From Serratia silvae (GTDB lineage Bacteria; Pseudomonadota; Gammaproteobacteria; Enterobacterales; Enterobacteriaceae), in the NCBI RefSeq assembly GCF_023282985.1, contig NZ_JAGQDC010000008.1, forward strand, positions 62,001 through 126,000: a DNA stretch of 64,000 bases, in the 5' to 3' direction. Positions within the stretch are counted from its first letter, which is position 1. Every line of letters starts with the position of its first letter. A program made the translations under genes and the position numbers. Positions 1-62,015 of this stretch are shown here, in pieces. The notes under the pieces were generated by a model. It was not told the DNA's origin and did not search any database. It worked only from the letters and a program-made list of their open reading frames with translations.

Positions 1-274
1 TGTCACGGGTTTGCAACTGCGCCAATTCCTCTACTTGTTCAGTAATCAAATCGCTGACGCGATGCAGGATCGCCGCACGCTGATGCGGCACCAGTCCACG
101 CCAGCTCGGATCGCGCCAGGCTTTTTCTGCCGCCGCAACGGCCTCATTCACATCCTCGACGTTGGCCGCTCGCAGGCGAGCATTCACGCTGCCATCAGCC
201 GGGAAAACCGAACTCATCTCTTCGCCGCGCCCTTCGCACCAGCGGCCGGCAAGAAAAATCTTTAACGTTTCCAT
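1..274 (-). CDS. aldehyde dehydrogenase, N-terminal part (runs off the window)
   Basis: The first 91 codons of a protein that continues beyond the left edge. The start ATG at 274 follows an AGGAGC ribosome site and lies 16 bp after the stop of the aspartate-dehydrogenase-like gene. The N-terminus has the FLAGRWCEG opening, an FPADGSVNARLRAA stretch and an AEKAWRD helix, the usual pattern of the NAD(P)-dependent aldehyde dehydrogenase superfamily. The catalytic Cys and Glu lie outside the window. It is the last visible gene of the aromatic catabolic operon, where it would oxidise a semialdehyde produced by ring cleavage or side-chain processing; that role is inferred from position. Confidence 0.82.
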   Translation of the reverse strand, partial: METLKIFLAGRWCEGRGEEMSSVFPADGSVNARLRAANVEDVNEAVAAAEKAWRDPSWRGLVPHQRAAILHRVSDLITEQVEELAQLQTRD

Positions 275-290
275 GCTCTGCTCCTGCCAT

Positions 291-1085
291 TCAGGCAATA
301 AAACCGCCGTCCACCAGACTGCGGCAGGCTTGTACCGCACTCAGCGCCGCCAGCGTTGACGTTTTCGGGTTGCTGGCCAGTGGGTTGCCGCACAGCTCAA
401 TCTGGAACTCGCCAAACTGGCCGCACACCTGTAAGCGGTGAGTATTACGTTGAGTATGCGGATCTACCTGCAAGCGTACCCGCGTGGCATCCATCCCCAA
501 GCCATGCAGCGCAATGGTGGCCGCTACGTTGGCGTTGGCTGGGAACATGCTTGCGGCTTCCCGGGCCGACCCTTCAAAGAACACCTGCGCTTCGCTGACG
601 GCATCCAGATTAATCAGTTTTTCCGCCGGGCTGCCGCGCCAACTGGCCGGGCTTTTGCTGGACTGATAGGTCACACTGTCCAACCCGCCTTCCCGCGCCG
701 AAGCCAGGCCATCCATACCCGCCACCGCACCAGACAGCACAATCAGCTGCCCGTGGTAGCGTGCGCAGGCCTGCTGCAAACGCAGTTGCAATGCAGCATC
801 TGCCAGAGCGCCAGTAGAGATCACCGCCAGCCGCCAGCCACGTTTAACGATGGCCTCACCAAACTCGGCGACCGCCTGCTGGCTGGCACACTCCACCACC
901 AAATCAGGTTGCTCGGTACACTGGTCAGGATGGGTCAGCGCCTGCACCTGTCCGGCAAATGCAGCGTCGATCTCAACATGATGCGTTTCCCGTGCCACGA
1001 TCCAACCCACTGCCACGCCCTCCGGCAGGCGCGCAAGCACCTCTTTTGCCATCGCGCCATAGCCAATCATCATGATCTTTTTCAT
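291..1085 (-). CDS. L-aspartate dehydrogenase family protein
   Basis: 264 residues, the usual family size. An N-terminal Rossmann fold carries GYGAMA (residues 8-13). The C-terminal half has the family signatures NVAAT, GMDATRVRLQVDP, a histidine in RNTHRL matching the catalytic His position, FGEF and NPKTS. Known members reductively aminate oxaloacetate or oxidise L-aspartate with NAD(P). Here it sits between an SDR and an aldehyde dehydrogenase in an aromatic catabolic operon and not beside NAD biosynthesis genes, so the true substrate may be a keto or imino acid released from the aromatic compound (inference). The family call is firm; the substrate is not. Confidence 0.82.
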   Translation of the reverse strand: MKKIMMIGYGAMAKEVLARLPEGVAVGWIVARETHHVEIDAAFAGQVQALTHPDQCTEQPDLVVECASQQAVAEFGEAIVKRGWRLAVISTGALADAALQLRLQQACARYHGQLIVLSGAVAGMDGLASAREGGLDSVTYQSSKSPASWRGSPAEKLINLDAVSEAQVFFEGSAREAASMFPANANVAATIALHGLGMDATRVRLQVDPHTQRNTHRLQVCGQFGEFQIELCGNPLASNPKTSTLAALSAVQACRSLVDGGFIA

Positions 1086-1098
1086 CTTTTCAGTCCCG

Positions 1099-1893
1099 TC
1101 AGAGATGGCGATTGAAACCGCCGGAAACGTCCAGCGCCGCGCCGGTAGTAAAGGAGGACATGGGGGAGGCTAAAAACAGCAGCGCCCGTGCCGGTTCCTG
1201 CGGTTTACCTAAACGCCCCATAGGGATGCCACGCCGCTCGGCAATCGCTGCTGTCCACTGTTCCCAGCTTTGTTGTTGATCCTGGCGTTCGGCAAAGCGC
1301 CGCCGCCATTGGCCCGACTCCACCATGCCCAGTAGGATGGAATTGACGCGGACCCCTTTGCTCACCAGCTCTTTCGATAAGGTCAGCGTCATGTTGAGCA
1401 ACGCGGCACGGGCCGCCGAGGTGGCAATCATGTGCTCTTCCGGCTGCAGGGCCAGCAATGAGTTAACGCAGGTAATGGAGGCGATATCTGAACGCTCCAG
1501 CGCCGGTAAAAAGGCCTGCACCGGGTTGATCACCCCGAACAGTTTTAGCTCTGCCTCATGCAACCAGGCTTCACGCGGTGTCTGATCGAAATGTGCCACA
1601 AACCCCTGCCCGGCGTTGTTGATCAACATATCCACTGCGCCAAAATGCGTGCTGACCTGCTCGGCAAACTTGGCAACCTGCTCGGCGTCGAGCACATCAC
1701 AACGTAACGCCAGGATCTCCGCCTGCGGGAACTCTTCACGCAGGCTGGCCTCGGCGCTGGCCAGTTTGTCCTGATTGCGGCCACAGAAAGCGACTTTCGC
1801 CCCTTCGGCCAGCAATAGACGCAGCGTTTCAAAACCGATCCCCGAGGATCCTCCGGTGACCACCGCCACTCGCCGTTCAATCTGAAAATTCAT
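1099..1893 (-). CDS. SDR-family protein without the Tyr-Lys catalytic pair
   Basis: 264 residues with a classical short-chain dehydrogenase layout. The cofactor motif TGGSSGIG is at 13-20 and NNAG near 92, with a serine near 145 in the catalytic position and a C-terminal GAALDVSGG. The usual YxxxK is replaced by Thr158 and Arg162 (TSAAR), read directly from the DNA. Its start ATG overlaps the stop of the upstream hydrolase gene (ATGA), so the two are translationally coupled. NAD(P) binding is likely. Ordinary alcohol dehydrogenation is doubtful; it may have a non-redox or unusual role in the pathway. The reading frame is intact with no sign of decay. Confidence 0.8.
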   Translation of the reverse strand: MNFQIERRVAVVTGGSSGIGFETLRLLLAEGAKVAFCGRNQDKLASAEASLREEFPQAEILALRCDVLDAEQVAKFAEQVSTHFGAVDMLINNAGQGFVAHFDQTPREAWLHEAELKLFGVINPVQAFLPALERSDIASITCVNSLLALQPEEHMIATSAARAALLNMTLTLSKELVSKGVRVNSILLGMVESGQWRRRFAERQDQQQSWEQWTAAIAERRGIPMGRLGKPQEPARALLFLASPMSSFTTGAALDVSGGFNRHL

Positions 1894-2708
1894 GGTTGGA
1901 TTGCCCCCGTAAAGTCCTGCAAATAGCGGTTAAACAGCGCTGGCGCATCGAGATAGCTGGCATGCCCCGCCGCATCAATCAGACGGATTGTCGCATCCTG
2001 CTGTTGCGCCAACGTTGCGGCCCCCTGCGGTGGCGTGATGCGATCGACACTGCCACACCACACCTGTAACGAGCCGCGATAGCGCACCAGGTAACGGTTG
2101 ATATCGTCATTGGCCAGCATCCAGGCGGCACTGAGAAAACCGGCTGGATCAAGTTGCTGCATGCCGCTGCGTACCCAGGCAATATCCTGCGGATCCGCAT
2201 CTTCACGTAGCAGTGCCGCCGCTCGCTGTTCGCCGTAGCCCTGTGGGCCAAGCGTTTCGATCATCTGTTTGCGTTGGCCATACACCTGCTGGCGTTTTTC
2301 CAGCGGCGCAGTGGCATAGCCCTGCGCCGGATCGGCTAATACCAGTCCACTCACCCCATCTGGGTTGGCGGCAGCAAAGGCACTACCGATCAACGCACCG
2401 AGCGAATGCCCCACGATCAGCGGCTGTTGTAACTGCAACTCGGCGATCAGCGCCGCCAGCGCGTTGGCATAAGCAGTAGCATCTGGTTCTGCCTGCGCCA
2501 GCGCTGCGCTACTGCCATAACCCGGAGCATCCCAGGCAATCAGGCGGTGGCCGTCGGTCAGGGCGCGATCGCTGAACTGCTTCACCCACGAAGCGGAACC
2601 GGAACTGATGCCATGCAGCAGTACCACGGCCCGGCCATGCCCGGCTTCGCGCCAACTCAGCCGTCGGCCTCCACAATCCGCCTGCTGGCGTTCCGGTAAG
2701 CCGTTCAT
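1890..2708 (-). CDS. alpha/beta hydrolase, possible ring-cleavage product hydrolase
   Basis: 272 residues from the ATG at 2708, which overlaps the cupin stop by one base (TGATG); a longer upstream reading would sit inside the cupin gene. The oxyanion-side LLHG is at 31-33, and the nucleophile elbow GHSLG places Ser102. Asp222 (GSVDR) and His249 (AGHAS) complete the triad. It resembles meta-cleavage-product hydrolases and enol-lactone hydrolases. With an extradiol dioxygenase in the same operon, C-C or ester hydrolysis of a ring-opened product is the most economical role (inference). Confidence 0.82.
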   Translation of the reverse strand: MNGLPERQQADCGGRRLSWREAGHGRAVVLLHGISSGSASWVKQFSDRALTDGHRLIAWDAPGYGSSAALAQAEPDATAYANALAALIAELQLQQPLIVGHSLGALIGSAFAAANPDGVSGLVLADPAQGYATAPLEKRQQVYGQRKQMIETLGPQGYGEQRAAALLREDADPQDIAWVRSGMQQLDPAGFLSAAWMLANDDINRYLVRYRGSLQVWCGSVDRITPPQGAATLAQQQDATIRLIDAAGHASYLDAPALFNRYLQDFTGAIQP

Positions 2709-3232
2709 CAGTTGCGCTTCACTTTCGACAACGGGTGATCGGCCGGGTAAGTCGGGGTTTCCGGCTTGGAAGTACCGAGCATCACGCACATCAGCGCTTC
2801 TTCTTCGCCGTGATTGAACAGGCCGCGATAAATCCCCGCCGGAACAGAAATCAGGTCACGCTCTTTCAGGATGGTTTCGTAATACTCTTCACCGTCCTGG
2901 ATCATCAGCGTGATTTTGCCTTTGAGCATAAAGAACACTTCTTCAACGTCGTCATGCAGGTGCAATGGCCCCTCACATTTCGACGGCAGTACCATGGTAG
3001 AGAAGGTAAAGTTCCCCGCCGGAATGGTGTTGGTGTCGCTGACGACGCCAGTGGCACCAGTGCCGATATAACGCATCTGCGCACGGCGGTACTTTGGATC
3101 GTAATCGGCCTGAAACTTCAGCGCGTTCCAGTCATATTTACGGCCTTCGAAACGGGCGATACGCGATTCCACCCACTTCTCCATTGTCAGATCCTGCGGC
3201 TTGATGCCGGCTTTCTTCTCAACCTGGGACAT
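2708..3232 (-). CDS. single-domain cupin protein
   Basis: 174 residues. I chose the ATG at 3232 because AAGGAG precedes it at ideal spacing; an upstream in-frame start lacks this. The cupin metal site is visible as His91, His93 and Glu97/98 in motif 1 (GPLHLHDDVEE) and His141 in motif 2 (LFNHG). Cupins in such clusters act as metal-dependent oxygenases or isomerases, or protect intermediates. Nothing in the sequence separates these options. It is translationally coupled to the hydrolase downstream. Confidence 0.78.
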   Translation of the reverse strand: MSQVEKKAGIKPQDLTMEKWVESRIARFEGRKYDWNALKFQADYDPKYRRAQMRYIGTGATGVVSDTNTIPAGNFTFSTMVLPSKCEGPLHLHDDVEEVFFMLKGKITLMIQDGEEYYETILKERDLISVPAGIYRGLFNHGEEEALMCVMLGTSKPETPTYPADHPLSKVKRN

Positions 3233-3252
3233 GTTGTCTCTCCTTCGTTGCA

Positions 3253-4515
3253 TCAATACTTATTCAGTAACGGCAGCAGAATGGCGCAGCCGGCAAAGGC
3301 CATCACCACCAGGAACAGCAAACCGTTATCCATATTGCCGGTGGCGGCGATCAGCGCCCCCATCAGCACCGGTGCCAATGCGCCGGCAAAATTACCCAAT
3401 CCGTTAAATACCCCGCCAGCGGTAGCGCTCACCCGGCTGCTGGTTGCCTTGGCCAACAGCGCGAAGATGTTTGGCGCACCGGCTCCCCACATAAAGGTGC
3501 TGAAGGACATGGCGGCGATCACGCTGTAGGTACCTTGCATATGCAGAACGACACCCAAACCGATCCCGGCACCGCATAGCGAGATGAAACAGGCCAATGC
3601 GCGGCGATCCATCTTGTCCGATAACCAGGCCCCCACCACTTCACCCAGCAGCATGGCAATAAACGGCAGTGACGACAGGTATCCGGCGTGCTCCAGATGA
3701 ATGCCTTTGCCTTCGATCAGATAGCTCGGTAGCCAGCCGTTCATGCCCCACAGGTAGGTGAGAAACGCGATGTTAAACAGGCAAATCATCCAGAAATGTG
3801 GAGTGCTGAACAGTTCACGGCGCAGTTGTTTACGTTCGGCAACGGCCGGTTTACTGGTGTTGCTGGCAGCCGGGCGCGCCACGTTAAGGTGACGCATACC
3901 AAACAGCACCAGCAACATCACCGGCACGGTCAGAAACGCCATAAAGAAGAAGGTGGTTTCCCAGTTAAAGCGGCTGAGAATGAACAGCGTGACCGGGAAG
4001 CCCAGCGCCGCCCCAATCGGGGTCCCCAGCAGCCACAGCATGGTGGCACGCGCCTGGAGACGTTGCGGAAAAGCCTGGCGTACGATGGCATAAGCCATTG
4101 GCAACAACGGCCCTTCGGCGATGCCCAGCAGGATACGCAGCGTCATCATGGTGTGATAAGAGCGCGTCATCCCCATCAGCACCATCAGCACGCCCCAGGT
4201 CACCATCATGCCAATCAGCACTTTGACCGGATTGAGCCGATCGCCAATGCCGCTCAACAGCATCGAAGAAAAGCCGTAAGAGAATAAAAAGGCGCTCATC
4301 AGCAGCCCGAGCCGGGTGGGATCAAAGCCTATGCCCATCGCCTGCTGAAACTCGTGGTCAGAAAACAGCGCGGCAATGCTGATCTTGTCGAAAAACGCCA
4401 GTAACACGCAGGCAAACAGGGCTGCTGGCACCGACCAACGCACGCTGGTTGGCGAATTTTCGGCAACAGCATCCCCCACCCGACCGCTGCGGGCGTCGAT
4501 ATCTTGCGTAGTCAT
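3253..4515 (-). CDS. MFS transporter, aromatic or organic acid uptake
   Basis: 420 residues with about 12 hydrophobic segments. The first begins near residue 28 (VPAALFACVLLAFFDK), and a charged central loop is near 210-230. The loop between helices 2 and 3 (GIGDRLNPVKVLIG) and the 8-9 loop (AWLSDKMDRRALA) fit the anion:cation symporter branch that includes phthalate, hydroxybenzoate and glucarate importers. An aspartate in helix 1 (FFDK) is typical. Placed between the reductase and cupin genes, it most likely imports the substrate of the pathway. Confidence 0.82.
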   Translation of the reverse strand: MTTQDIDARSGRVGDAVAENSPTSVRWSVPAALFACVLLAFFDKISIAALFSDHEFQQAMGIGFDPTRLGLLMSAFLFSYGFSSMLLSGIGDRLNPVKVLIGMMVTWGVLMVLMGMTRSYHTMMTLRILLGIAEGPLLPMAYAIVRQAFPQRLQARATMLWLLGTPIGAALGFPVTLFILSRFNWETTFFFMAFLTVPVMLLVLFGMRHLNVARPAASNTSKPAVAERKQLRRELFSTPHFWMICLFNIAFLTYLWGMNGWLPSYLIEGKGIHLEHAGYLSSLPFIAMLLGEVVGAWLSDKMDRRALACFISLCGAGIGLGVVLHMQGTYSVIAAMSFSTFMWGAGAPNIFALLAKATSSRVSATAGGVFNGLGNFAGALAPVLMGALIAATGNMDNGLLFLVVMAFAGCAILLPLLNKY

Positions 4516-4539
4516 AAAACGCTCCCTTTGAGTCGGGCG

Positions 4540-5751
4540 TTATTTCAACGCCATCAGAGAAAATTCCACATCCGCCAGTTGCTGCGGATCCAGTACCCGG
4601 CCACTGGCCAGCCAGCGTTTACCCAACTTGATGGTACGCGCGTCGTTAAACGCGACCAGTTGCACCAATTGCCGATCGGCATTCAGGGTGAAAAACAGTT
4701 GTGACTGCGGTGTGCGGCGCACTATCTGGTGAACGCCGCCGGTAGGGACGCCCAGGATTTGAATATTGGCGTCGTATTGATCCGACCACAGCCAGGCCAC
4801 ATCATCGTAAGGTGCGGCAAACGCATCCAACATGGCGCAAGCGGTGCTGATCGCCTGATTCTGTGCGTAGGCCCAGGATTGCAGACACAGGCCGAGGGTG
4901 GGATGGCACGCAACATCGCCGGCGGCAAAAATGGCCGGGTGGCTGGTACGCCCTTGCCCATCTACGACGATCCCGCCTTCAAGGCGCAGCCCGGCTGTGC
5001 GTGCCAGTTCCAGATTCAGTTCAACGCCAATGCCGACAACCACCAGGTCGAAGGGCTGCGCGGTACTGCTGGCGCTGCCAATCCAGGCTTCACCATCGCG
5101 ATCTTCAAGCGTGATCTCGCCGCAGTCACAATGTACGGTAACGCCTTGCTGTTGATGCAGTTCCAGCAAAGCCTGGGAAACGCTAGCCCCTACGCTACGC
5201 ATACACAGCGCGGGTTGACGCTCAAACACCGTTACGTCAACGCCCAGCTTGCGGGCCGAGGCGGCAATCTCCAACCCGATCCAGCCACCACCCACAATCG
5301 CCAGCTTTTGGCATTGCAGTAAGCCTTGGCGCAGGCGTGCCGCATCATCCCAGGAACGCAGGGTCATCACTCGCGGGTGCTTGGCCCAACTGGCATCCGG
5401 CAGGCGTGGTCGGCCACCGGTGGCGATCAGCAGTTGATCGAACTGCAACTGGCTGCCGTCGCTGAGCGTGACGATTTGCTGCTGCCCGTCGATGGCTTCG
5501 GCACGAAGTGGGCGGTACCAGTCGATATTCATCCCGGCGACCACCTCTTCACTGAACAGGCGGCTGAGCGGCGCACTACCATCCAACAGCGCTGCCTTGG
5601 AGAGCGGTGGGCGTTCGTAAAAATCATAAGGCTCGTCACTGATCACCGACAGCCTGCCGCTATAACCGCGATCACGCAGCGTTTTCGCCGCCCAACCACC
5701 GGCCTGACCACCGCCGATAATGACAATGCCTGCACGGGTTGCTTGGCTCAT
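4540..5751 (-). CDS. FAD/NAD(P)H ferredoxin reductase of the Rieske oxygenase system
   Basis: 403 residues, glutathione-reductase-type. It has an FAD-binding GGGQAGGWAAKTLR near the N-terminus, an NAD-binding GGGWIGLEIA near residue 155 and the FAD-contacting IFAAGDVA near 275. This architecture matches BphA4/CarAd-like reductases, which pass electrons from NADH to a Rieske ferredoxin. The partner ferredoxin is encoded at 9786-10103 and the oxygenase at 8411-9454. The start overlaps the stop of the extradiol dioxygenase gene (ATGA). Confidence 0.88.
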   Translation of the reverse strand: MSQATRAGIVIIGGGQAGGWAAKTLRDRGYSGRLSVISDEPYDFYERPPLSKAALLDGSAPLSRLFSEEVVAGMNIDWYRPLRAEAIDGQQQIVTLSDGSQLQFDQLLIATGGRPRLPDASWAKHPRVMTLRSWDDAARLRQGLLQCQKLAIVGGGWIGLEIAASARKLGVDVTVFERQPALCMRSVGASVSQALLELHQQQGVTVHCDCGEITLEDRDGEAWIGSASSTAQPFDLVVVGIGVELNLELARTAGLRLEGGIVVDGQGRTSHPAIFAAGDVACHPTLGLCLQSWAYAQNQAISTACAMLDAFAAPYDDVAWLWSDQYDANIQILGVPTGGVHQIVRRTPQSQLFFTLNADRQLVQLVAFNDARTIKLGKRWLASGRVLDPQQLADVEFSLMALK

Positions 5752-6689
5752 ACCGCCCCCGGCTTCTTATGTTGGCGGCGGGTATCGTGATCGATACCGC
5801 CTTCGACCGCCCATTCGGTAAACGACACCAGCGAATGCTCCAGTTCACGCGGCTGCCAGTTTTCCGTCAGGTAGTCATCATTGGTGTAATACTCAAAGGC
5901 ACCGCCGGTCGGGCTGTTGACGTACCAAAAATAGGCCGAGGAGATCGGGTGGCGGCCTGGGCCAATAAAGGTGCTCCACTGCTCTTTATTCATCGCGATG
6001 CCGCCGCCGATCACTTCATGGATATCGCGTACGGTGAAAGCAACGTGGTTTAGGCCCCGTGGGCGGTTAGGCAGTTTCAGCAGGAACAGGTTGTGATGAC
6101 CACCGCGTGCCTGGGTTCTCAAGAAGACGGCGCGATCGATATAGCGGTCGGACACCTGGAAACCGAGCAGATCGCAGTAGAAGCGTTCGGTAGCAGCCAA
6201 ATCCTCAACGAAGAACACCACGTGGCCGATATTAACCGGTTCGGCTTTAGCATAAACCGGGCTAGGCTGGTCGATACGGCGTACATCGCCCCATTGGTTG
6301 ATCGGTGAAACCGGCAGCTCTACCACCCGCTGCGCGGTGACGGTAAAACGCAGCGTCATGCCGTTGGGATCGCGACATTCCAGTTCTTCGCCAACGTGGC
6401 GGAAGCCAGGCATCTGCACCAACAGGGGTTGCAACGCAGCCAGCGCGGCCGGGCTTTCAACCGCCCAGGTCATGCGGCGCAGGGTAGAACCGGCTTCAAA
6501 CGCGGCCGGTAAGACCTCGCTGTCTTGCGGATACAGCACCACGCTAGCCCCGCTCAACGTGGTAAATTCACGGCGCGGTTCGCCCCAATGTTGTAGCGTC
6601 GGTTGCAGACCGAAGTCCTGCATAAACTTTTCGCACGTTGGCAGATCTTCGACGCCAAATTCCAGCTTTTCGATTCCGGTTATGCTCAT
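5748..6689 (-). CDS. extradiol (VOC-type) ring-cleavage dioxygenase
   Basis: 313 residues with two vicinal-oxygen-chelate repeats (about 5-120 and 152-275). The C-terminal repeat carries the iron ligands of type I extradiol dioxygenases: His156 (IGHVVF), His215 (LNHVAF) and Glu266 (AFEYY), close to the H146/H210/E260 spacing of BphC. It should open a catechol ring next to the hydroxyl pair. The start has GAGGC upstream. It is the first gene after the IclR gene and a 138-bp gap containing a promoter, so it heads the second transcription unit of the cluster. Confidence 0.87.
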   Translation of the reverse strand: MSITGIEKLEFGVEDLPTCEKFMQDFGLQPTLQHWGEPRREFTTLSGASVVLYPQDSEVLPAAFEAGSTLRRMTWAVESPAALAALQPLLVQMPGFRHVGEELECRDPNGMTLRFTVTAQRVVELPVSPINQWGDVRRIDQPSPVYAKAEPVNIGHVVFFVEDLAATERFYCDLLGFQVSDRYIDRAVFLRTQARGGHHNLFLLKLPNRPRGLNHVAFTVRDIHEVIGGGIAMNKEQWSTFIGPGRHPISSAYFWYVNSPTGGAFEYYTNDDYLTENWQPRELEHSLVSFTEWAVEGGIDHDTRRQHKKPGAV

Positions 6690-6782
6690 TATTGTGCCTC
6701 ACGTTCTCGCTGAATGCGTTTTTCAGGCATGATCGACCCCGGCCCATGAAGCTCATGAGTCTTATCCCTGCCTGAGTGATTG

Positions 6783-6811
6783 GTAATAGGCGAATAGCTT
6801 CGCCCAGACAA
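6783..6811 (-). promoter_or_regulatory. candidate sigma70 promoter for the dioxygenase-to-ALDH operon
   Basis: Read on the minus strand: TTGTCT, a 17-bp spacer, then TATTAC, about 85 bp upstream of the extradiol dioxygenase start. The spacer contains an inverted repeat, GGCGAA-4-TTCGCC, which could be a repressor operator or a weak terminator for the IclR gene. Prediction from sequence only. Confidence 0.45.
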
Positions 6812-6827
6812 CAAAGCGTTCGGCCGG

Positions 6828-7622
6828 TTAGCCGACGTTAGCCTGCGGTGGCGCGCCCAGCAGGCCGGAAATTTTCACTGCGGCGTCTCGGACTTCCATG
6901 CGCAACCGCTCGCGATCCGCCTTTGGGATCTCATCGGACGGCACCATAATGCTGACCACCGCTTCCACCCGCTGTTCGCGGTTAAAGATCGGATAGACGA
7001 TTGAGGAAATGCCGTGGCGGAAGAAAGATTCGCCAATCACATAGCCACGGGCCTTATCCTGTTGCACCATCTGCCACAGCGCTTCGCGATTGGCCGGAGT
7101 CCCCGGGGCCGCATCGGGCAAGGCTTCATGCGGAAACAGGCGTTCAAACTCTTCCCGGCTGGAACTGGTCAGCAGCATACGGCCGAGAGAGGTGCGGTGC
7201 GCCGGTAAACGGGTGCCCACGCTGACCTGGTTGATCTGCGAACCAGCAGCGCTGACGCGGGCAATGTAGATCACATCATGCCCATCGCGGATCGCCAGAT
7301 GGCTGCTGCATTGGCTGTGATCGCGCAGTTGCTCGATCACCGGTTGGCCAGCCTGGGCAACATCCAGCGAGGCGATATACTCAAAGCCCAGACGCAGCAC
7401 TTTGATCCCCAGCGCAAAGGTGTTGGTGCGCGGGTTGCGCTCCAAAAAGCCCAAGTGCTCCAACGTTTGCACCACACGATAGGCGGTTGCCTTTGGCATA
7501 TCGACCAGGCGATGTAATTCTGCAAAGGTCATTTCCTTATGCTGCTCGCCGAAGGCCAGCAACAGTTGTAACCCGCGATCCAGCCCCGGGATCAGATATT
7601 TACACGCTTGATCGTCTGCCAT
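6828..7622 (-). CDS. IclR-family transcriptional regulator of the catabolic cluster
   Basis: 264 residues. An N-terminal winged helix-turn-helix (about 10-75) contains MTFAELHRLVDMPKATAYR and a recognition-helix/wing region. A C-terminal IclR effector domain (about 90-255) contains GTRLPAHRTSLGRMLL and the GISSIVYPIF stretch. IclR proteins bind aromatic or carboxylic acid effectors and control neighbouring catabolic operons as repressors or activators. It lies inside the cluster, 36 bp after the SDR gene, with its own AGGAG site. A perfect palindrome at 10126-10141 is the best candidate operator. Confidence 0.87.
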   Translation of the reverse strand: MADDQACKYLIPGLDRGLQLLLAFGEQHKEMTFAELHRLVDMPKATAYRVVQTLEHLGFLERNPRTNTFALGIKVLRLGFEYIASLDVAQAGQPVIEQLRDHSQCSSHLAIRDGHDVIYIARVSAAGSQINQVSVGTRLPAHRTSLGRMLLTSSSREEFERLFPHEALPDAAPGTPANREALWQMVQQDKARGYVIGESFFRHGISSIVYPIFNREQRVEAVVSIMVPSDEIPKADRERLRMEVRDAAVKISGLLGAPPQANVG

Positions 7623-7658
7623 GTGCTGCTCCTAAATGTTTGCCTGTCCGTCAGGCGG

Positions 7659-8414
7659 TCAGTTAAACACGAAACCACCGTTGACCGGTATCAGTTGGCC
7701 GGTGACAAAATCCGCCAGCGGCGACAGCAGATAAAGCACGCTACCGGTTACATCGTCCGGATGCTGTGCACCTGCCAGTGCCCGGCCTTGCTCGTAAAGC
7801 TGATGCCGTTCGGCAGGGACGTATTCGGTCGCTTCAACGCGCGTCAGGCCCGGTGCGATGGCGTTGACGCAGATGCCCTGCGGCCCCAGCTCACGCGCCA
7901 TGGAACGGGTCATCGAGATGATCGCCCCTTTGCTCGCGACATAGGCCATTAGCCTTGGCGCGCCCCACAATGCGGTATCCGAAGCAACATTGACGATTTT
8001 GGCATGCGGCGTTTGTGCCAATAATGGCACCGCCGCCTGGCTCACCAACCAGGTCCCCCGTACGTTGACCTGCATGACCTTGTCCCACAGCTCAATGTCG
8101 TATTCCATCATGGTTTTGCCACCGATACCGGTAGCCATCGCGGCGTTGTTCACTAGCCCGTCGATCACTCCGCCCTGGGCTATCGCACTGAACGCCGCGG
8201 TGATGGATTGCGGTGAAGCCAGATCGATAACCTGAGCTTCAACCTGTGCCCCCTGCTCACGCAGGCTGGCGGCGCTGTCCTGCAACTCCTTCGCCAGGAT
8301 GTCGCACATCACCACGCTGGCCCCGGCCTGAGCCACCGCAGCGGCAAAGCTGCGCCCCAGCCCACGCGCCGCACCGGTGACTACGATACGCTTTCCTGCC
8401 AGCAAGCCGTTCAC
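7659..8414 (-). CDS. SDR dehydrogenase, likely cis-dihydrodiol or alcohol dehydrogenase
   Basis: 251 residues, a complete classical SDR. TGAARGLG is at 13-20, NNAA near 90, a catalytic Ser lies in NVASD, YVASK supplies the Tyr and Lys, and GQLIPVNGG is at the C-terminus. It overlaps the stop of the Rieske oxygenase gene by ATGA. In Rieske systems the next enzyme oxidises the dihydrodiol to a catechol; this is the obvious candidate for that step, in contrast to the degenerate SDR at 1099-1893. Confidence 0.85.
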   Translation of the reverse strand: MNGLLAGKRIVVTGAARGLGRSFAAAVAQAGASVVMCDILAKELQDSAASLREQGAQVEAQVIDLASPQSITAAFSAIAQGGVIDGLVNNAAMATGIGGKTMMEYDIELWDKVMQVNVRGTWLVSQAAVPLLAQTPHAKIVNVASDTALWGAPRLMAYVASKGAIISMTRSMARELGPQGICVNAIAPGLTRVEATEYVPAERHQLYEQGRALAGAQHPDDVTGSVLYLLSPLADFVTGQLIPVNGGFVFN

Positions 8415-9454
8415 TGTGCAGCCTCCAGCTCGCTAAGCGTTGCCAGCTGCTTTTGTGCCTCTTTCTGCATCATACGGCGCAGGCGGGAGAGACCCACGTC
8501 ATGCTGATAAAGGTATTCACGACCGCGCGCGTTCGGTGCCATGTTTTCCAGCACGATGCGATCTTGCTCCAGTACGTCCCAATGCAGTTCTTCCAGACGA
8601 TTGCGGTACATAAAGCGCCACGCATCACGCTGCCAGTCTTTCACTTTGCGGATACGCCAGAAGAATACCCGGCAGTGATCTTTATCTTCCGGTACCACCA
8701 TGCCGATGATCCAGAAGTGGCCGCCTGGCCCAAAACGCTTTTTGTAAGGGATCGACAGGCGCATCCAATAGGCACCGCTGCTGCCAAATTCTACCCAGTC
8801 GAAGTTCACACCAATCTGGCCGTTCTTCTTAAAGATAAAACCGCTGTCGGTGGGTTCCAGCGCCATATCGGCCTTGCGATCTCCTTCCGCCATCGAATGC
8901 GATGAGGAGTGCAGGTAGGTGCCATGCATCGGGTCCATCACGTTTTCCAATGCGTATTGATAGTTGCAGTCCCAGCTGGCGGTACACAGGAAGTTGCTGT
9001 AGTTGGCCTCATCCGCCAGTTCCTGCGGGAAGGTCAGTTCGGCAGGCTGTTCGTCGGCAGTGACGCCGAAATACAGGAACACCGCACCGTAAGCCTCTTT
9101 TGCCTGGTAGGACTTCAGGCATTTCTGCCCAACCAGCGGGCAACGGTCTACCGCTGGCACATCTTTAACCTCACCATCACCGCCGACTTCAACGCCGTGA
9201 TACCAGCAGGCAATACGATCGCCGAGGTTCCAGCCCATCGACAGGCGAGCACCGCGGTGCGGGCAACGATCTTCCAGCGCGTGGATCGCCCCTTGTTTAT
9301 CGCGCCATACCACAATCTGTTGTTCAAGACGGGTAATGCCCACCGGGTTATTACCCACTTCCCAACTGGCCAATACCGGGTACCACATACCGCGCAGGCC
9401 CTGATCCAGATAGTCTTGTACCGTCTGCGCGGAGGATGTTGTGTTTGCTGTCAT
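8411..9454 (-). CDS. Rieske non-haem iron oxygenase, alpha subunit
   Basis: 347 residues. The Rieske 2Fe-2S site is Cys64-x-His66 and Cys83-x2-His86. The mononuclear iron site is Asp174-x2-His177-x4-His182 (DPMHGTYLH) in a C-terminal START-like catalytic domain. It lacks a recognisable beta subunit gene, so it belongs with alpha-only oxygenases such as the phthalate/phenoxybenzoate or CarAa types. GGGAGAAGG precedes the ATG. Electrons would come from the reductase at 4540-5751 through the ferredoxin at 9786-10103. Hydroxylation versus dealkylation cannot be told from the sequence. Confidence 0.9.
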   Translation of the reverse strand: MTANTTSSAQTVQDYLDQGLRGMWYPVLASWEVGNNPVGITRLEQQIVVWRDKQGAIHALEDRCPHRGARLSMGWNLGDRIACWYHGVEVGGDGEVKDVPAVDRCPLVGQKCLKSYQAKEAYGAVFLYFGVTADEQPAELTFPQELADEANYSNFLCTASWDCNYQYALENVMDPMHGTYLHSSSHSMAEGDRKADMALEPTDSGFIFKKNGQIGVNFDWVEFGSSGAYWMRLSIPYKKRFGPGGHFWIIGMVVPEDKDHCRVFFWRIRKVKDWQRDAWRFMYRNRLEELHWDVLEQDRIVLENMAPNARGREYLYQHDVGLSRLRRMMQKEAQKQLATLSELEAAQ

Positions 9455-9474
9455 TGTCCTTCTCCCTGTGCTGC

Positions 9475-9783
9475 TCAGAAACCGTTGACATGTAGGAATT
9501 CGCGGAACGTGGCTTCATTCCAAGGCTGACCACTGCGATCGAACAGGCGACGTTGATTAAGCGCGCTGACGATCTGCTCCAGCTCCTCCGCCCCTTGCTC
9601 AAAGATCTCTTCCAGCGCAGCCACCAGCGCGGTTTCAAACCCATCCGGCACGCGCGCCCGGTTTTGCCAGATCACATTCTGAAACTGGCCGGGTTGATGG
9701 ATTTGGCCGTTGCCGCCCTCACGTGCCGGGATCACCTGTTGGGTATCCGGCAGCCAAGGGTTGAAATCGGTAATGTGCTGCAT
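9475..9783 (-). CDS. small protein with recombinase-like helix-turn-helix motif
   Basis: 102 residues with no signal peptide or membrane segment. The N-terminal half is polar (NPWLPDTQQVIPAREGG). The C-terminal half (about 45-100) is helical and ends in LNQRRLFDRSGQPWNEATF, the kind of sequence found in the 'recombinase' helix-turn-helix domain of large serine recombinases, but no catalytic serine-recombinase domain is present. It lies between the ferredoxin and Rieske alpha genes, where a beta subunit gene often stands, with GAGGA before the ATG. It may be an accessory subunit or a DNA-binding protein; I do not assign a function. Confidence 0.7.
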   Translation of the reverse strand: MQHITDFNPWLPDTQQVIPAREGGNGQIHQPGQFQNVIWQNRARVPDGFETALVAALEEIFEQGAEELEQIVSALNQRRLFDRSGQPWNEATFREFLHVNGF

Positions 9784-9785
9784 GC

Positions 9786-10103
9786 TTATTCCTCCGCGAT
9801 AAAGGTGATTTGGATTTGATTATCGATCACCCGGGTAGGGTAGGTTTGCAGATCACGGCCACCGGGTTCGCGCAGGCATTGGCCGCTACGCACATCGAAC
9901 ACCGCTTCGTGCAGTGGACACTCCACTTTTCCGTCATCAACAAACCCTTGGCTGAGCAAGGCATAGGCATGCGGGCAAACGTCTTCCAGCGCGTAATATT
10001 GACCGTCGATCAAATAGACGCCGACTTCTTTTCCCTCAACGCTGGCGGAGAAAGGAAAATCTTCTTTCACTTGAGACACTTCGCACACGTTCTTCCAGCT
10101 CAT
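9786..10103 (-). CDS. Rieske 2Fe-2S ferredoxin
   Basis: 105 residues, a single Rieske domain with Cys43-x-His45 (CPHAYALL) and Cys62-x2-His65 (CPLHEAVFD), the spacing of BphA3/CarAc-like ferredoxins. It shuttles single electrons from the FAD reductase to the oxygenase. It is the first gene of the cluster, two bases upstream of the small helical protein gene, and is preceded by the promoter and palindrome at 10126-10192. Confidence 0.9.
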   Translation of the reverse strand: MSWKNVCEVSQVKEDFPFSASVEGKEVGVYLIDGQYYALEDVCPHAYALLSQGFVDDGKVECPLHEAVFDVRSGQCLREPGGRDLQTYPTRVIDNQIQITFIAEE

Positions 10104-10125
10104 TGCTTCTGTCCTCTATCTGATT

Positions 10126-10192
10126 GTTTCATATATGAAACTCAGTTTCTTATTTAATACAGTCACTATAGGTATGGCGAATCTTTCGTCAA
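10126..10192 (-). promoter_or_regulatory. promoter with downstream operator palindrome for the catabolic cluster
   Basis: On the minus strand TTGACG (10192-10187), a 16-bp spacer and TATAGT (10170-10165) form a strong sigma70-type promoter. About 10-30 bp downstream is the perfect palindrome GTTTCATATATGAAAC (10126-10141), followed by an overlapping GAAAC-TCA-GTTTC (10137-10149). Binding there would block transcription. The nearby IclR-family regulator is the natural candidate ligand-controlled repressor (inference). Confidence 0.6.
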
Positions 10193-10283
10193 GGCAGCAA
10201 AGAGAAGAATGTTAATGATTGGTTATTTTAAAGTTACAACTGCGGAGTGGATCACGAAAAAATGCACCGGGGGTGAAAACAAA

Positions 10284-10322
10284 GTAAAACGGCCCCAGTC
10301 ATCAAGACTGAGGCCGTTTAAT
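10284..10322 (-). terminator. rho-independent terminator after rluF
   Basis: An inverted repeat with AAACGGCC/GGCCGTTT outer arms and an AGTC/GACT inner arm, 28 bp downstream of the rluF stop. The minus-strand transcript ends in a T-rich tail. Confidence 0.8.
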
Positions 10323-10349
10323 CAGCAGTAATTGGCAGAAAGCGCCGAC

Positions 10350-11222
10350 TTATCGCCCTTTCTTTTTGCGCCCTGGCTGAGCAAAGCGCTTACGCGCTGG
10401 TGCGTGGCTGCCCGCTTTGTCCGCGGTTTTCTGCCCGCCGCTCGCCGGTTTTTTCACCGCAGGCTTGGGCTTGGCCGCTTTCTTCGCGGGTTTGGCCTCA
10501 GAGGAGGAATCTTCAATCAGCTTAAACAGCTCAACCAATTCGTCGTCCGTCAAATCGCGCCATTCTCCTAACGGCAGCCCAGACAGGCCCACGTTCATGA
10601 TGCGGGTACGCTCCAGCTTGGTCACCTCATAACCAAAATGTTCACACATGCGGCGGATCTGGCGGTTAAGCCCCTGCACCAGCACGATACGGAACACAAA
10701 GGGGGCTTCCTTCTTCACCTTGCATTTTTTGGTCACCGTGCCCAGCATTGGCACCCCGGCCCCCAAACCACGGATAAAGTCATCGGTCACCGGTTTGTTG
10801 ACCGTGACCAGGTATTCCTTTTCGTGATCGTTACCGGCACGCAGGATCTTGTTCACCAGATCGCCGTGGTTGGTAAGGAAGATCAGCCCCTGCGAGTCTT
10901 TATCCAACCGCCCTATCGGGAAGACACGGGTGCTGTGGTTGACGAAATCGACAATATTGTCTTTCTCACCGTCTTCGGTGGTGCTGACAATCCCCACCGG
11001 CTTGTTCAGCGCAATAAAAATCAGGTTGTCTTCGTTGCGGGGTTCAATAAGCTGCCCGTTAACCTTGACCACGTCGCCAGCGAATACCCGATCGCCGAGC
11101 GCCACGCGCTTACCGTTGATAAAAACATTGCCCTGTTCGATGTAACGATCGGCATCGCGACGCGAGCAGATGCCGCTCTCGCTAATATATTTGTTGAGGC
11201 GTATAGATGGTTTAGTCAGCAC
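10350..11222 (-). CDS. rluF: 23S rRNA pseudouridine synthase RluF
   Basis: 290 residues, the same length as E. coli RluF. An N-terminal S4 RNA-binding domain (about 8-65) precedes a catalytic domain with [10 protein letters not shown], where the Asp is the nucleophile, and the [13 protein letters not shown] motif. The C-terminal 40 residues are rich in Lys, Ala and Pro ([17 protein letters not shown]), a basic tail typical of this enzyme. It isomerises U2604 of 23S rRNA (known for the family). It is monocistronic, with its own terminator. Confidence 0.93.
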
Positions 11223-11306
11223 GGTTCCTCCGTAAACGCGAAATACACTTTATCTTCACGGCAATATTTTCATGATGGGTTGACGGGTAAGGGCCGCTGC
11301 CAAGTG

Positions 11307-11326
11307 GGCGCAGCATGCAGCGCCCC
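11307..11326. repeat. short palindromic unit between rluF and speB
   Basis: GGGCGCAGCATGCAGCGCCC, self-complementary except for two A-A positions. The rest of the 11223-11369 gap shows no gene. A near-identical unit (18 of 20 bases) is the stem after aceF at 63771-63790. It may be a speB terminator stem or a dispersed hairpin unit. Confidence 0.4.
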
Positions 11327-11369
11327 TACGGTCGACTATGTACGACCCCTACCCATTCAGCAAACTGAT

Positions 11370-12290
11370 TTAGCCCTGCTTTTTGGCAGCTTGTAGATAC
11401 AACATTTCCAGACCCAAGGTCGCCGCAGCCAATGCGGTGATCTCTGACTGGTCGTAAGCCGGAGCTACTTCTACCACATCCATGCCGACAATGTTCAGCG
11501 ACTGCATACCACGCACCAGTTTCAGAGCGCGATCGGAGGTCAGGCCGCCGATCACCGGGGTGCCGGTGCCAGGTGCGAAAGCCGGATCCAGGCAGTCGAT
11601 ATCGAAGGTCAGATAAACCGGCATATCGCCAACGATCTGTTTGATCTGCGCCAGCAGATCGTCCACGCCACGATCGTTAACCTGCGCAGCATCCAGTACG
11701 GTGAAGCCGTTGTCACGATCGAACTCGGTACGGATACCGATCTGTACCGAGTGATTTGGATCGATCAGGCCTTCGTTCGGTGCATGGAAGAACATGGTGC
11801 CGTGGTCAAACTTGCTACCGTTAGCGTAGGTATCGGTATGGGCATCGAAATGCACCAGCGCCATTTTGCCAAAATGCTTGGCATGCGCGCGCAGCAACGG
11901 CAGCGTCACGAAGTGGTCACCACCGAAAGAGAGCATGCGTTTGCCAGCTGCCAGCAGTTTTTCTGCGTGCGCCTGCAGCTTGTCGCTCATATCCTGGGCA
12001 TCACCAAAGTTGAATACCACGTCACCACAATCGACCACGTTCAGACGATCGCGCAGATCAAAGTTCCACGGCCAGCGCGCCCCTTCCCATGCCAGATTGG
12101 TAGAAACCTGGCGGATCGCCGCAGGGCCATGACGTCCACCGGCACGGCCGGAGGTAGCCATATCAAAAGGAACACCGGTGATCACCCACTCTGCATCGCT
12201 ATCGTAAGGCATAAAGTTCAGCGGAAAGCGCAGGAAACCAAAGGCGTTGGACACTAAGGAATTATCGGGCTGATGGCCTAAGGTACTCAT
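11370..12290 (-). CDS. speB: agmatinase
   Basis: 306 residues from the ATG at 12290 (MSTLGHQ), the E. coli start, with GAGGG upstream; a start four codons earlier is less likely. It is an ureohydrolase with the two-manganese ligand motifs [15 protein letters not shown] and DIDCLDP. It hydrolyses agmatine to putrescine and urea, acting after SpeA. In E. coli it directly follows speA; here msrB and msrA lie between the two, with a terminator at 12343-12390, so speB probably has its own promoter. Confidence 0.95.
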
Positions 12291-12342
12291 ATTTACCCTC
12301 ATTTTTCAACGGTTCGCCCGTAGCCGGACGCTTGGGCGGTAG

Positions 12343-12390
12343 CAAAAAAAAATCCCTCCCGCGTCGTTAGCCCGACGAGAAAGGGATTTA
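12343..12390 (-). terminator. rho-independent terminator after msrA
   Basis: On the minus strand AAATCCCT...CGTCG-loop-CGACG...AGGGATTT is followed by a run of at least eight T. It separates the msrBA transcript from speB. Confidence 0.8.
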
Positions 12391-12484
12391 TTCGATGTCT
12401 GTTTCAATGGGTAGATTATCGCCGTATTTGGTTCACTCTTCAAGGTGCCCGTTATTACCAAGTATAGGGGAGACCAGTCAGCGA

Positions 12485-13207
12485 TCAGTGTACCAATACT
12501 GGCTCCGCACGATATTGCGTTGGAAACAGCTGCTGTAGCTGTTTTACCTTCGGCAAATCATTCACCACGATATAGGGCTGATCCGGGTTAAGGGTGAGAT
12601 AGTTTTGGTGGTAAGCCTCGGCAGGATAAAAGTGGCCATTGTCCTCAATTCGGGTCACCAGCGGTTTAGCAAAACGTTTACTGGCATTCAGCTGTGCAAT
12701 ATAAGCCTCGGCAACCTGCTGTTGTGACGCCGACAGTGGGAAAACGGCTGAGCGATATTGCGTGCCGCTGTCTGGCCCTTGGCGATCGAGTTCGGTTGGG
12801 TTGTGTGCTACCGAAAAATAGATTTGCAGCAGTTGACCATAGGAAATCTGCTGTGGATCAAAGGTGACCTGCACCGACTCCGCATGGCCGGTATCACCTC
12901 CACTGACGGCCTCATAATTAGCCGTTTGTGCCGCACCACCGGTATATCCCGATACGGCATTGGCCACACCCTTGACATGCTGGAATACCCCTTGCACGCC
13001 CCAGAAACAACCGCCGGCAAAGATCGCGGTTTCCGTGCGTGATGTCGTTGGCGCTTCGTCTTTTACCGGTGCAGGGATCGCCACAGCCACCTCGGCATCA
13101 CCCAGTGGCCAGGCAATGCTTTGCCAGCAGAATACGCTAGCAGCCAATACCGCGCCCCATAGGCCGTATTTACCCAGCGATGGCATCACTTTGTCTACGT
13201 TTCTCAT
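12485..13207 (-). CDS. msrA: peptide methionine sulfoxide reductase MsrA, membrane-anchored or periplasmic form
   Basis: 240 residues from the ATG at 13207 (GAGGA upstream; a GTG four codons earlier is possible). Residues 12-33 form a hydrophobic signal/anchor, then comes a linker rich in Ala, Val and Pro. The MsrA domain starts near 58 with GGCFWG (catalytic Cys67) and has the conserved EAYHQNYL near the end. It reduces methionine-S-sulfoxide in proteins. The export signal and the partner msrB immediately upstream point to repair of oxidised envelope proteins. Confidence 0.9.
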   Translation of the reverse strand: MRNVDKVMPSLGKYGLWGAVLAASVFCWQSIAWPLGDAEVAVAIPAPVKDEAPTTSRTETAIFAGGCFWGVQGVFQHVKGVANAVSGYTGGAAQTANYEAVSGGDTGHAESVQVTFDPQQISYGQLLQIYFSVAHNPTELDRQGPDSGTQYRSAVFPLSASQQQVAEAYIAQLNASKRFAKPLVTRIEDNGHFYPAEAYHQNYLTLNPDQPYIVVNDLPKVKQLQQLFPTQYRAEPVLVH

Positions 13208-13227
13208 CTCATTCCTCACTATTCTGG

Positions 13228-13728
13228 TTAGGCCGAGCGTGGTGTAAAGAGCATGGCAGTACCATTCATGCAGTAGCGCAAACCGGTGGGTTGCGGGCCA
13301 TCGTCAAACACGTGCCCCAAATGCCCGCCGCAGCGGCTGCAATGCACCTCTTCGCGGACCATGCCCAGCGTTCGATCCTTACGCGTCGCCACCGCCTGTT
13401 CGAGGGGTTGCCAGAAACTGGGCCAGCCGGTATGGCTGTCAAACTTGGTGTGGGAAGAAAACAGCGCCTGCTGGCAACCCGCACAGGCAAACTGACCATC
13501 GCGGTGCTCATCGTTAAGCGGACTGCTGTAAGGCGGTTCCGTCCCCTCCTCCCGCAAAACCGCATATTGGCTGGCTGAAAGCCGTTGCCGCCATTGCTCT
13601 GCGGTATAATTGACAGCAAACGACTCCGCCATCGCCGAACGAGAGAAAATTGCAGGCAGCAGGCCCACGGCGTAGGCCATAGAGAGTGCCCCTCCGCCCA
13701 GAATAAAATACCGTCTGTTGATCATCAT
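13228..13728 (-). CDS. msrB: methionine-R-sulfoxide reductase MsrB with twin-arginine signal
   Basis: 166 residues. The N-terminus NRRYFILGGGA plus a hydrophobic stretch ending in AMAES is a Tat-type signal peptide. The MsrB domain has two CxxC zinc motifs (CAGC and CSRC), the GHVFDDGP loop and catalytic Cys153 in RYCMNG. It reduces methionine-R-sulfoxide and complements MsrA encoded 20 bp downstream. Together they form a periplasmic stereo-complete repair pair. Two consecutive ATG codons make the start uncertain by one residue. Confidence 0.9.
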   Translation of the reverse strand: MMINRRYFILGGGALSMAYAVGLLPAIFSRSAMAESFAVNYTAEQWRQRLSASQYAVLREEGTEPPYSSPLNDEHRDGQFACAGCQQALFSSHTKFDSHTGWPSFWQPLEQAVATRKDRTLGMVREEVHCSRCGGHLGHVFDDGPQPTGLRYCMNGTAMLFTPRSA

Positions 13729-13800
13729 CGTTACCTCAGGTGCTATTCACCGACAATGACAAACTACAGAGAAAGTCGTGACCAAATCCTCACGGAGAGT

Positions 13801-61992: not shown

Positions 61993-62015
61993 ATCAACCT
62001 TACCAACCGCAGAAG

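Follow-up and report, generated by a model that had tools for sequence, protein, structure and literature searches.

Which compound does the run of catabolic genes at the start of this stretch of Serratia silvae DNA break down? The stretch, hereafter the window, comprises 64,000 nucleotides (positions 62,001 to 126,000 of contig NZ_JAGQDC010000008.1, assembly GCF_023282985.1), and its first 10,192 nucleotides hold minus-strand genes for a three-part Rieske oxygenase, an extradiol dioxygenase, and further enzymes typical of aromatic degradation. The comparative evidence described below indicates that this operon very probably degrades kynurenate (4-hydroxyquinoline-2-carboxylate), and would form the lower half of a tryptophan “quinoline route”. 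Kynurenate is proposed as the substrate because the operon shares an operator with a kynurenine-linked operon elsewhere in the genome, because the genomes concerned have tryptophan 2,3-dioxygenase (TDO) without detectable kynureninase, and because of the enzyme set itself. The same three observations uphold the original prediction, made from the window alone, in its hint of a nitrogen-containing aromatic. In what follows, G denotes a genome (G000 is the source genome), C a contig, and L a locus, while bare coordinates refer to the window.

Between the predicted promoter and the first gene of the operon sits the sequence GAAACTGAGTTTCATATATGAAAC, which is retained in most of the Enterobacterales loci printed and is recognisable in some farther ones. 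The promoter call is weak alone because of the number of matches that shuffled sequences yield (Table 1). The 16-bp core of the putative operator, allowing up to two mismatches, occurs at four places in the source genome: one site is before the Rieske operon, one is near nadA, and two share a spacer on another contig (G000:C36:356090 and 356254). The latter two (L146:9090 and 9254) lie upstream of an operon encoding a hydrolase, RidA, an aminotransferase, and a permease. The match between the sites of the two operons reaches 32 bp, TTAAATAAGAAACNNAGTTTNATATATGAAAC, with zero mismatches in both in the source genome.

The 32-bp motif was searched for in 19 genomes with up to three mismatches, alongside a reversed-pattern control. 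It occurs at zero or one mismatch exactly twice in 13 of the 19 genomes, while the control is found in none of them. Four other genomes have one site (zero to two mismatches), G015 has one site at zero and one at two mismatches, and G052 has no site within three mismatches; a third, weaker site is present in G445 (three mismatches) and in G007 (two mismatches). Five genomes (G007, G046, G444, G445, and G457) entered this search already showing a second 16-bp site, and among the nine that were not preselected (G001–G006, G008, G015, and G022), seven have a second 32-bp site. By coordinates, the first site lies 0.4–0.7 kb upstream of the cluster's HTH_62 or Rieske alpha gene. The second lies upstream of the four-gene kynurenine operon in the source genome and in all 12 of the other two-site genomes. 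The chance of such a site pair, estimated from base composition, does not exceed about 1e-7 per genome; the 32-bp site common to both operons in 13 genomes is not a chance occurrence. The IclR-family protein encoded in the Rieske operon is assumed to be the reader of this operator, where it would probably sense kynurenate or an intermediate. Its nearest model is the PcaR/PobR subfamily, with a score under that model's cut-off.

Other copies of the operator accompany other genes. A two-mismatch 16-bp word (G000:C50:5830, L147) lies just upstream of nadA, which encodes quinolinate synthase; this match and that at C36:356090 may be due to chance, and neither is needed for the kynurenate assignment. 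In two genomes, a two-mismatch copy of the 32-bp operator precedes a gene for a 398-aa protein whose N terminus is signal-like (L173:6134-7330 and L187:755-1951); it may be an outer-membrane channel that belongs to the same regulon. This protein has no Pfam match, and neither do the secreted proteins encoded after four further sites. In G017, a set comprising a second Rieske alpha (51%), a RidA-family protein, a Fer2-type reductase, a VOC protein (47%), and an MFS protein (L120, from about 9785-13758 onward) adjoins a second HTH_62 match, with a one-mismatch operator word nearby (G017:C1:4257239). This set is possibly a paralogous pathway.

The second operon, on C36, consists of genes for an alpha/beta hydrolase with an HGGYW motif, RidA, a class I aromatic aminotransferase, and an amino-acid permease. 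Among the matches of the hydrolase (L146:9263-10078) is the kynurenine formamidase of Drosophila (4e11, 7e-14). The aminotransferase is a member of PRK09257, a broad aromatic family; kynurenine, once transaminated, cyclises spontaneously to kynurenate. In Acinetobacter baumannii (NZ_CP077849), the gene order is AsnC-like regulator, kynureninase (confirmed by KYNU_C), permease, and alpha/beta hydrolase, and these KynU-adjoining permease and hydrolase genes are 53% and 41% identical, respectively, to their Serratia counterparts. This layout is that of A. baumannii cluster ESGC-0452, the deletion of which is reported to abolish growth on kynurenine (PMC9162365). The two systems are alike in that the permease and formamidase-like hydrolase are homologous to those of the co-regulated Serratia operon. 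However, the A. baumannii cluster leads through kynureninase to anthranilate, whereas Serratia has an aminotransferase and RidA in kynureninase's place and has a Rieske operon tied in through the operator. Human AATM (KAT4), an enzyme of the aspartate aminotransferase clade, is described as forming kynurenate (PMC9309667).

Of 17 genomes searched for TDO, 12 have it, namely all two-site genomes except G007. In the source genome TDO lies at G000:C36:385989, on the same contig as the kynurenine operon and 30 kb away from it. A search of 23 genomes for kynureninase (PF22580) found it in six: G446 (Serratia microhaemolytica), a relative with one site, and five genomes from other groups. None of the 13 genomes with two sites, the source genome among them, has a detectable match. 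Because TDO is present, kynureninase is not detectable, and an aromatic aminotransferase is co-regulated, kynurenate appears, on the genes covered, to be the evident exit for kynurenine in these genomes. By homology, the source genome has TDO, a formamidase-like hydrolase, and an aminotransferase with which kynurenate could be supplied from tryptophan. In some other carriers, kynurenine genes are found near the cluster itself: G255, probably an alphaproteobacterium, has TDO and KynU about 9 kb away, while two related members of the Oceanospirillales, Marinobacterium and an Oceanospirillaceae metagenome-assembled genome, have a TDO paralogue and a kynureninase-like enzyme 6–10 kb away, with pyrimidine genes in between in Marinobacterium. 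This proximity is supportive and not decisive, because other genes intervene. At two loci (L068:301-2749 and L137:6506-8941), a divergent TDO paralogue is paired with a distant kynureninase-like pyridoxal phosphate enzyme; their genomes also carry a second TDO and a kynureninase.

The thirteen same-strand genes first described at 1-10192 are all present as minus-strand open reading frames (ORFs) with the functions named. From 10103 down to 1, they encode a Rieske ferredoxin, the HTH_62 protein, Rieske alpha, a short-chain dehydrogenase/reductase (SDR1), the IclR regulator, the VOC dioxygenase, a ferredoxin reductase, the MFS transporter, a cupin, an alpha/beta hydrolase, a second SDR (SDR2), aspartate dehydrogenase, and aldehyde dehydrogenase (ALDH). 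The cluster had been called complete, which was slightly off, in that the thiamine diphosphate (ThDP) enzyme and most of ALDH lie beyond the window. In the assembly past the window edge, ALDH runs to completion and is followed by a 248-base spacer and a 546-aa ThDP enzyme, so that the operon has 14 genes. The spacer (L004:10557-10804) contains a GC-rich, repeat-like stretch, from which a 23-base word recurs exactly at window positions 43016-43038; it is probably a dispersed repeat of the source genome. Among five stop/start overlaps originally counted, three are clear: GTGA between Rieske alpha and SDR1, ATGA between VOC and ferredoxin reductase, and ATGA between hydrolase and SDR2. The other two hold only under a particular choice of start codon. 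The cupin/hydrolase overlap (TGATG) requires the hydrolase to start at an internal ATG, which is the start adopted here and agrees with where conservation sets in, and the MFS/cupin overlap requires the cupin to start at TTG, with an ATG 24 bases later having a better ribosome site.

The grouping of these genes is widely retained. The best 80 of 518 candidate loci from a genome-contig scan, taken with best matches first, were compared for eleven core genes (ferredoxin, HTH_62, Rieske alpha, SDR1, VOC, reductase, cupin, hydrolase, SDR2, aspartate dehydrogenase, and ALDH). All eleven are present by ORF calling in 67 of the 80 loci and lie on a single strand in each of these 67; therefore, their grouping is not due to chance. 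At L041, Rieske alpha is whole by tblastn, which brings the complete loci to 68. These complete loci range from Enterobacterales and Acinetobacter through to Burkholderiaceae. The 102-residue HTH_62 protein is present in all 80 loci, as a constant partner of this Rieske alpha. The ThDP gene is visible on the same strand in only 41 of the 80 because many flanks end short of it, and it is retained in the cluster, together with aspartate dehydrogenase, across classes of Proteobacteria. Annotated records of Klebsiella, Acinetobacter, two Caballeronia, and Novosphingobium contain the full set or most of it. HTH_62 matches occur in 29 of 398 Pseudomonadota genomes, and in 15 of these, the source genome included, they are small stand-alone ORFs above cut-off. 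All 14 other genomes with a stand-alone HTH_62 have a Rieske alpha nearby, mostly with more cluster parts. Complete genomes of E. coli have no near match.

Among the incomplete loci, four (L028, L067, L079, and L090) are truncated by the contig or locus end. In five halophile loci (L046, L047, L048, L054, and L055), the operon is split by other genes, with the remainder found on further fetching, and the genes missed by ORF calling at L125 and L126 are all present. At L045 (Candidatus Symbiopectobacterium), just ferredoxin, HTH_62, and Rieske alpha are seen (L045:9328-11014), and a shortened aromatic aminotransferase lies 9 kb from these remaining genes (20237-20944); this looks like decay in a symbiont. 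At L057 (Zobellella denitrificans), the cluster stops inside the hydrolase gene, from about 16350 on, through rearrangement or misassembly; two sister species keep the cluster whole.

Conservation of the operon's enzymes was assessed in pooled alignments of ORFs with more than 70% coverage, more than 60 bits, at least 30% identity, and less than 1.5 times the reference length. The Rieske and Fe motifs of the alpha subunit, the S-YxxxK of SDR1, the His/His/Glu of VOC, the hydrolase triad, the HxHx4E of the cupin, and the Glu and GDG...ND of the ThDP enzyme are conserved, and the ThDP enzyme also has an RGEAGA motif. At the level of enzyme class, and not of substrate, Rieske alpha, ferredoxin, and the flavin adenine dinucleotide (FAD) reductase together form a ring-hydroxylating dioxygenase system with electron transport, SDR1 and VOC correspond to a cis-dihydrodiol dehydrogenase and an extradiol dioxygenase, and the ThDP enzyme and ALDH correspond to a 2-oxo-acid decarboxylase and an aldehyde dehydrogenase. 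By score and motifs, the aspartate dehydrogenase belongs to the NadX-type family, with conserved NxH and NPKTS motifs (90 aligned rows). In SDR2, which was first called degenerate, the catalytic Tyr/Lys pair is indeed gone, but it is replaced by VNSLLALQPE.HM..TS.ARA, in which each lettered position is at least 80% conserved and most are at least 97% conserved (92 aligned rows). SDR2 therefore looks re-tooled for a different reaction (C=C reduction, for example) and not in decay. By sequence, Rieske alpha matches a putative phthalate dioxygenase (7fhr) slightly ahead of carbazole 1,9a-dioxygenase, and by fold its best solved match is carbazole 1,9a-dioxygenase (model mean predicted local distance difference test score, pLDDT, 84). 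Among the matches listed, the nearest named Rieske alpha proteins (94–96% identical) are from Serratia liquefaciens, S. grimesii, S. bockelmannii, and S. ureilytica. A functional call for the cupin from its predicted structure was dropped, the model being too weak (pLDDT 67).

Kynurenate degradation in Pseudomonas was reportedly worked out chemically in extracts by the Hayaishi group around 1960. The classical intermediates are said to arise by dihydroxylation at C7-C8, dehydrogenation, cleavage between C8 and C8a, reduction, decarboxylation, and oxidation, which yields 5-(2-carboxyethyl)-4,6-dihydroxypicolinate. The enzyme classes of this route and their order agree with the 14 genes, and each enzyme class that it needs has a motif-conserved candidate in the operon. 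The cupin, the aspartate dehydrogenase, and the HTH_62 protein fall outside the classical scheme. Delftia acidovorans reportedly breaks down tryptophan by the quinoline route. In the upper half of the proposed pathway, TDO would first convert tryptophan into N-formylkynurenine. The operator-bearing operon would then contribute the permease, the formamidase-like hydrolase, RidA, and the aromatic aminotransferase, which would turn kynurenine into kynurenate through a keto acid that cyclises unaided. In the lower half, kynurenate would be brought in by the MFS transporter, oxidised by the three-part Rieske system to the 7,8-cis-dihydrodiol, and dehydrogenated by SDR1 to 7,8-dihydroxykynurenate. 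The VOC enzyme would cleave this between C8 and C8a, giving a dihydroxypicolinate with a 2-oxobutenoate side chain. This side chain would be saturated by a reductase (candidate SDR2) and the resulting 2-oxo acid decarboxylated by the ThDP enzyme, and ALDH would oxidise the aldehyde to 5-(2-carboxyethyl)-4,6-dihydroxypicolinate.

The cupin could then open the pyridine ring of this intermediate, and the hydrolase could split the ring-opened product into iminosuccinate and a C5 diacid, the latter being 2-oxoglutarate under oxidative opening; aspartate dehydrogenase would reduce the iminosuccinate to aspartate. An aspartate dehydrogenase is to be expected here if the picolinate ring ends as N-C(COOH)=CH-COOH. 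The pyridine N, C2, C3, and C4, together with the carboxylate, make up the skeleton of iminosuccinate, aspartate's imine partner, while the remaining five carbons would leave as glutarate or 2-oxoglutarate. We infer these end steps, as well as the roles of the cupin, SDR2, and the HTH_62 protein. A bolder scheme, which is offered tentatively and may well prove incorrect, is that Serratia and many relatives possess a complete co-regulated route from tryptophan through kynurenate to central metabolism, with new end chemistry and an additional entry for xanthurenate. Under this scheme, the cupin would make N-(2-oxoglutaryl)aminofumarate by oxidative opening of the 4,6-dihydroxypicolinate ring, the alpha/beta hydrolase would free 2-oxoglutarate and iminosuccinate, and aspartate dehydrogenase would trap the imine as aspartate. 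Marine and halophilic carriers would feed xanthurenate and its sulfate ester into the same catechol by means of an FAD hydroxylase and a sulfatase.

It is unlikely, although this is the best of the alternatives, that the main substrate is instead another kynurenine-derived quinoline, such as xanthurenate (8-hydroxykynurenate) or quinaldate, with kynurenate being at most one entry. An FAD_binding_3 hydroxylase is found beside the cluster at L046, L047, L048, L055, L116, L117, and L119, mostly with a TRAP importer and/or a sulfatase, in halophile, probable alphaproteobacterial, and other variants (the hydroxylase was identified by tblastn, with Pfam for three; TRAP and sulfatase were identified by Pfam at L048 and elsewhere by similarity). 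Hydroxylation of xanthurenate at C7 would give the same 7,8-dihydroxykynurenate and is therefore a possible second entry, so these variants may serve xanthurenate or its sulfate. However, the cluster of the window has no such FAD hydroxylase, the Rieske system and diol dehydrogenase are required solely for a ring lacking the 8-hydroxyl group, and the co-regulated operon, as interpreted here, yields kynurenate directly.

An ordinary operon for a non-nitrogen aromatic acid, such as a plant phenolic or hydrocarbon acid, with the aspartate dehydrogenase and operator incidental, is very improbable. The Rieske, extradiol, and hydrolase parts do resemble proteins of hca, and, hpa, and bph type, but the NCBIfam equivalog cut-offs remain unreached: AndAb 98 of 150 bits, AndAa 300 of 650, HcaD 313 of 450, and HcaE 33 of 830 for the Rieske parts, and HpaD 79 of 321 and catechol_2_3 58 of 320 for the extradiol part. 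For this reason, and, hca, hpa, and bph are ruled out as the identity of the operon, and the initial statement that it matches no named pathway is sustained; the iac pathway, which we presume to be different, was likewise set aside. Moreover, aspartate dehydrogenase and the ThDP enzyme are kept across classes of Proteobacteria, the 14 genes include no hydratase-aldolase, and sharing of the 32-bp site with a kynurenine-linked operon is more than coincidence. Least credible is a route that detoxifies or scavenges an indolic compound derived from tryptophan, such as indole-3-pyruvate or indole-acetate, and provided by the aromatic aminotransferase, which comes from a broad family and could use tryptophan. 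Against this, the kynurenine operon begins with a formamidase-like gene and has a permease resembling the KynU-adjoining one of A. baumannii, no kynureninase was found in the TDO-bearing genomes of this set, and an indole ring offers no obvious iminosuccinate for aspartate dehydrogenase.

A number of observations weigh against the assignment of kynurenate. Shared regulation implies a kynurenine-linked role, which could also fit xanthurenate or another kynurenine product. The second operator site overlaps a start codon and is hence partly coding, and the TDO gene itself has no operator copy. Some 16-bp sites (G447 at L171, G007:69886, G017:2429204, and G444:112161) are not upstream of the kynurenine operon, and in Burkholderiaceae a local variant of the operator was found as a single copy in 9 of the 14 genomes searched and in none of the other five, with no second operon. 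A LysR gene, which adjoins the kynurenine operon at 8 of the 13 loci, could regulate that operon instead of IclR. The best PDB match of the hydrolase in the kynurenine operon is “Lipase 1” (9n8r, 1e-51), a putative esterase (2pbl) also ranks above the formamidase, and its NCBIfam match is to a lipase model, under cut-off. Apart from G007, a two-site genome without TDO, a separate search found TDO in 9 of 15 cluster carriers and not in the other six, and none was found in the single cluster-bearing genomes of Klebsiella, Acinetobacter, Psychrobacter, Ignatzschineria, and Billgrantia; carriers without TDO would therefore depend on outside kynurenate. Where kynurenine genes do occur near the cluster, they are separated from it by other genes, and the kynureninase-like enzyme among them is under the Pfam cut-off (24.6 of 27). 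Within the cluster, the role proposed for SDR2 departs from its family's usual residues, SDR2 being the sole such candidate among the needed enzyme classes, and in the 38 kb read at L092/L135 the cluster genes are ordered differently and SDR2 is missing. In the second motif of the cupin, YR stands where a His is usual, and the cupin's fold search, from a weak model (mean pLDDT 67), is unspecific, with generic matches.

Table 1. Features of the proposed kynurenate operon, with window coordinates unless a locus is given.
Feature	Position	Strand	Evidence or remark
Sigma-70-like promoter TTGACG-16-TATAGT	10165..10192	-	1 found versus 0.6 +/- 0.8 in shuffles
32-bp double palindrome TTAAATAAGAAACTGAGTTTCATATATGAAAC, putative operator	10126..10157	-	also before the kynurenine operon elsewhere in the genome
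Rieske ferredoxin (oxygenase electron carrier)	9786..10103	-	PF00355 2.4e-21; under AndAb and HcaC equivalog cut-offs
HTH_62 “recombinase-like HTH” protein, 102 aa	9475..9783	-	PF20552 2.3e-21
Rieske oxygenase alpha; proposed kynurenate 7,8-dioxygenase	8411..9454	-	PF00355 and PF19112
SDR1, S-YxxxK intact; proposed cis-7,8-dihydrodiol dehydrogenase	7659..8414	-	
IclR-family regulator; candidate operator reader	6828..7622	-	PF01614 4e-33, PF09339
VOC extradiol dioxygenase; proposed 7,8-dihydroxykynurenate 8,8a-dioxygenase	5748..6689	-	HpaD-like 2.6e-22, under cut-off
FAD ferredoxin reductase	4540..5751	-	PF07992 4e-57, PF14759 1.5e-18
MFS transporter; proposed importer	3253..4515	-	PF07690 3e-54
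Cupin, HxHx4E; possible ring-opening dioxygenase or other ring-processing step	2708..3232	-	PF07883 2.3e-11
Alpha/beta hydrolase, Ser-Asp-His; possible enamide/ring hydrolase	1890..2708 (internal ATG)	-	PF12697 1.8e-22
SDR2 without Tyr/Lys; possible enone (C=C) reductase	1099..1893	-	NF005468 (PRK07062) 440 bits, cut-off 266
L-aspartate dehydrogenase homologue; proposed iminosuccinate reductase	291..1085	-	NF009828 394 bits, cut-off 177; 2dc1 5e-33
ALDH, N-terminal part (start at internal ATG)	1..274	-	gene continues past the window
ThDP decarboxylase-like gene, 546 aa	L004:8916-10556 (G000:C96)		after ALDH, outside the window

Two further characterised systems resemble parts of this operon. 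Carbazole 1,9a-dioxygenase (CarAa) and other alpha-only Rieske oxygenases have a similar alpha subunit and a similar supply by ferredoxin and reductase, but CarAa has about 22% identity to this Rieske alpha and is followed by other genes. The lum cluster for riboflavin/lumichrome, like this operon, applies Rieske and extradiol enzymes and ThDP-dependent decarboxylation to a nitrogen heterocycle; it differs in having a Rieske enzyme with alpha and beta subunits, 25 genes, and a ThDP step that acts on the heterocycle, and the word aspartate is absent from the main text of its report (PMC12746152). Glutamate, alanine, and organic acids are reported as the products of kynurenate metabolism in pseudomonads (PMC11354673, citing Horibata et al. 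1961). Among the open-access matches listed, no genes are assigned to kynurenate breakdown, and the names of kynurenate enzymes gave no match in that literature. This negative is weak, in that it covers the open-access matches listed, and an overlooked paper could exist. The gene combination is probably not new to biochemistry, in that it fits a route described around 1960, and the genes alone appear to be unassigned.

Kynurenate is a brain-active tryptophan product. It has been described as acting on NMDA and GPR35 receptors, as being produced by gut microbes, and as being excreted by mammals. If the assignment proposed here is true, it would provide genes for a set of orphan enzymes of kynurenate breakdown and would offer an explanation for the puzzling presence of an aspartate dehydrogenase in such clusters. 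It would also mean that Serratia, Klebsiella, Enterobacter, Acinetobacter, Paraburkholderia, and others could clear kynurenate in guts, in soil, and on plants.

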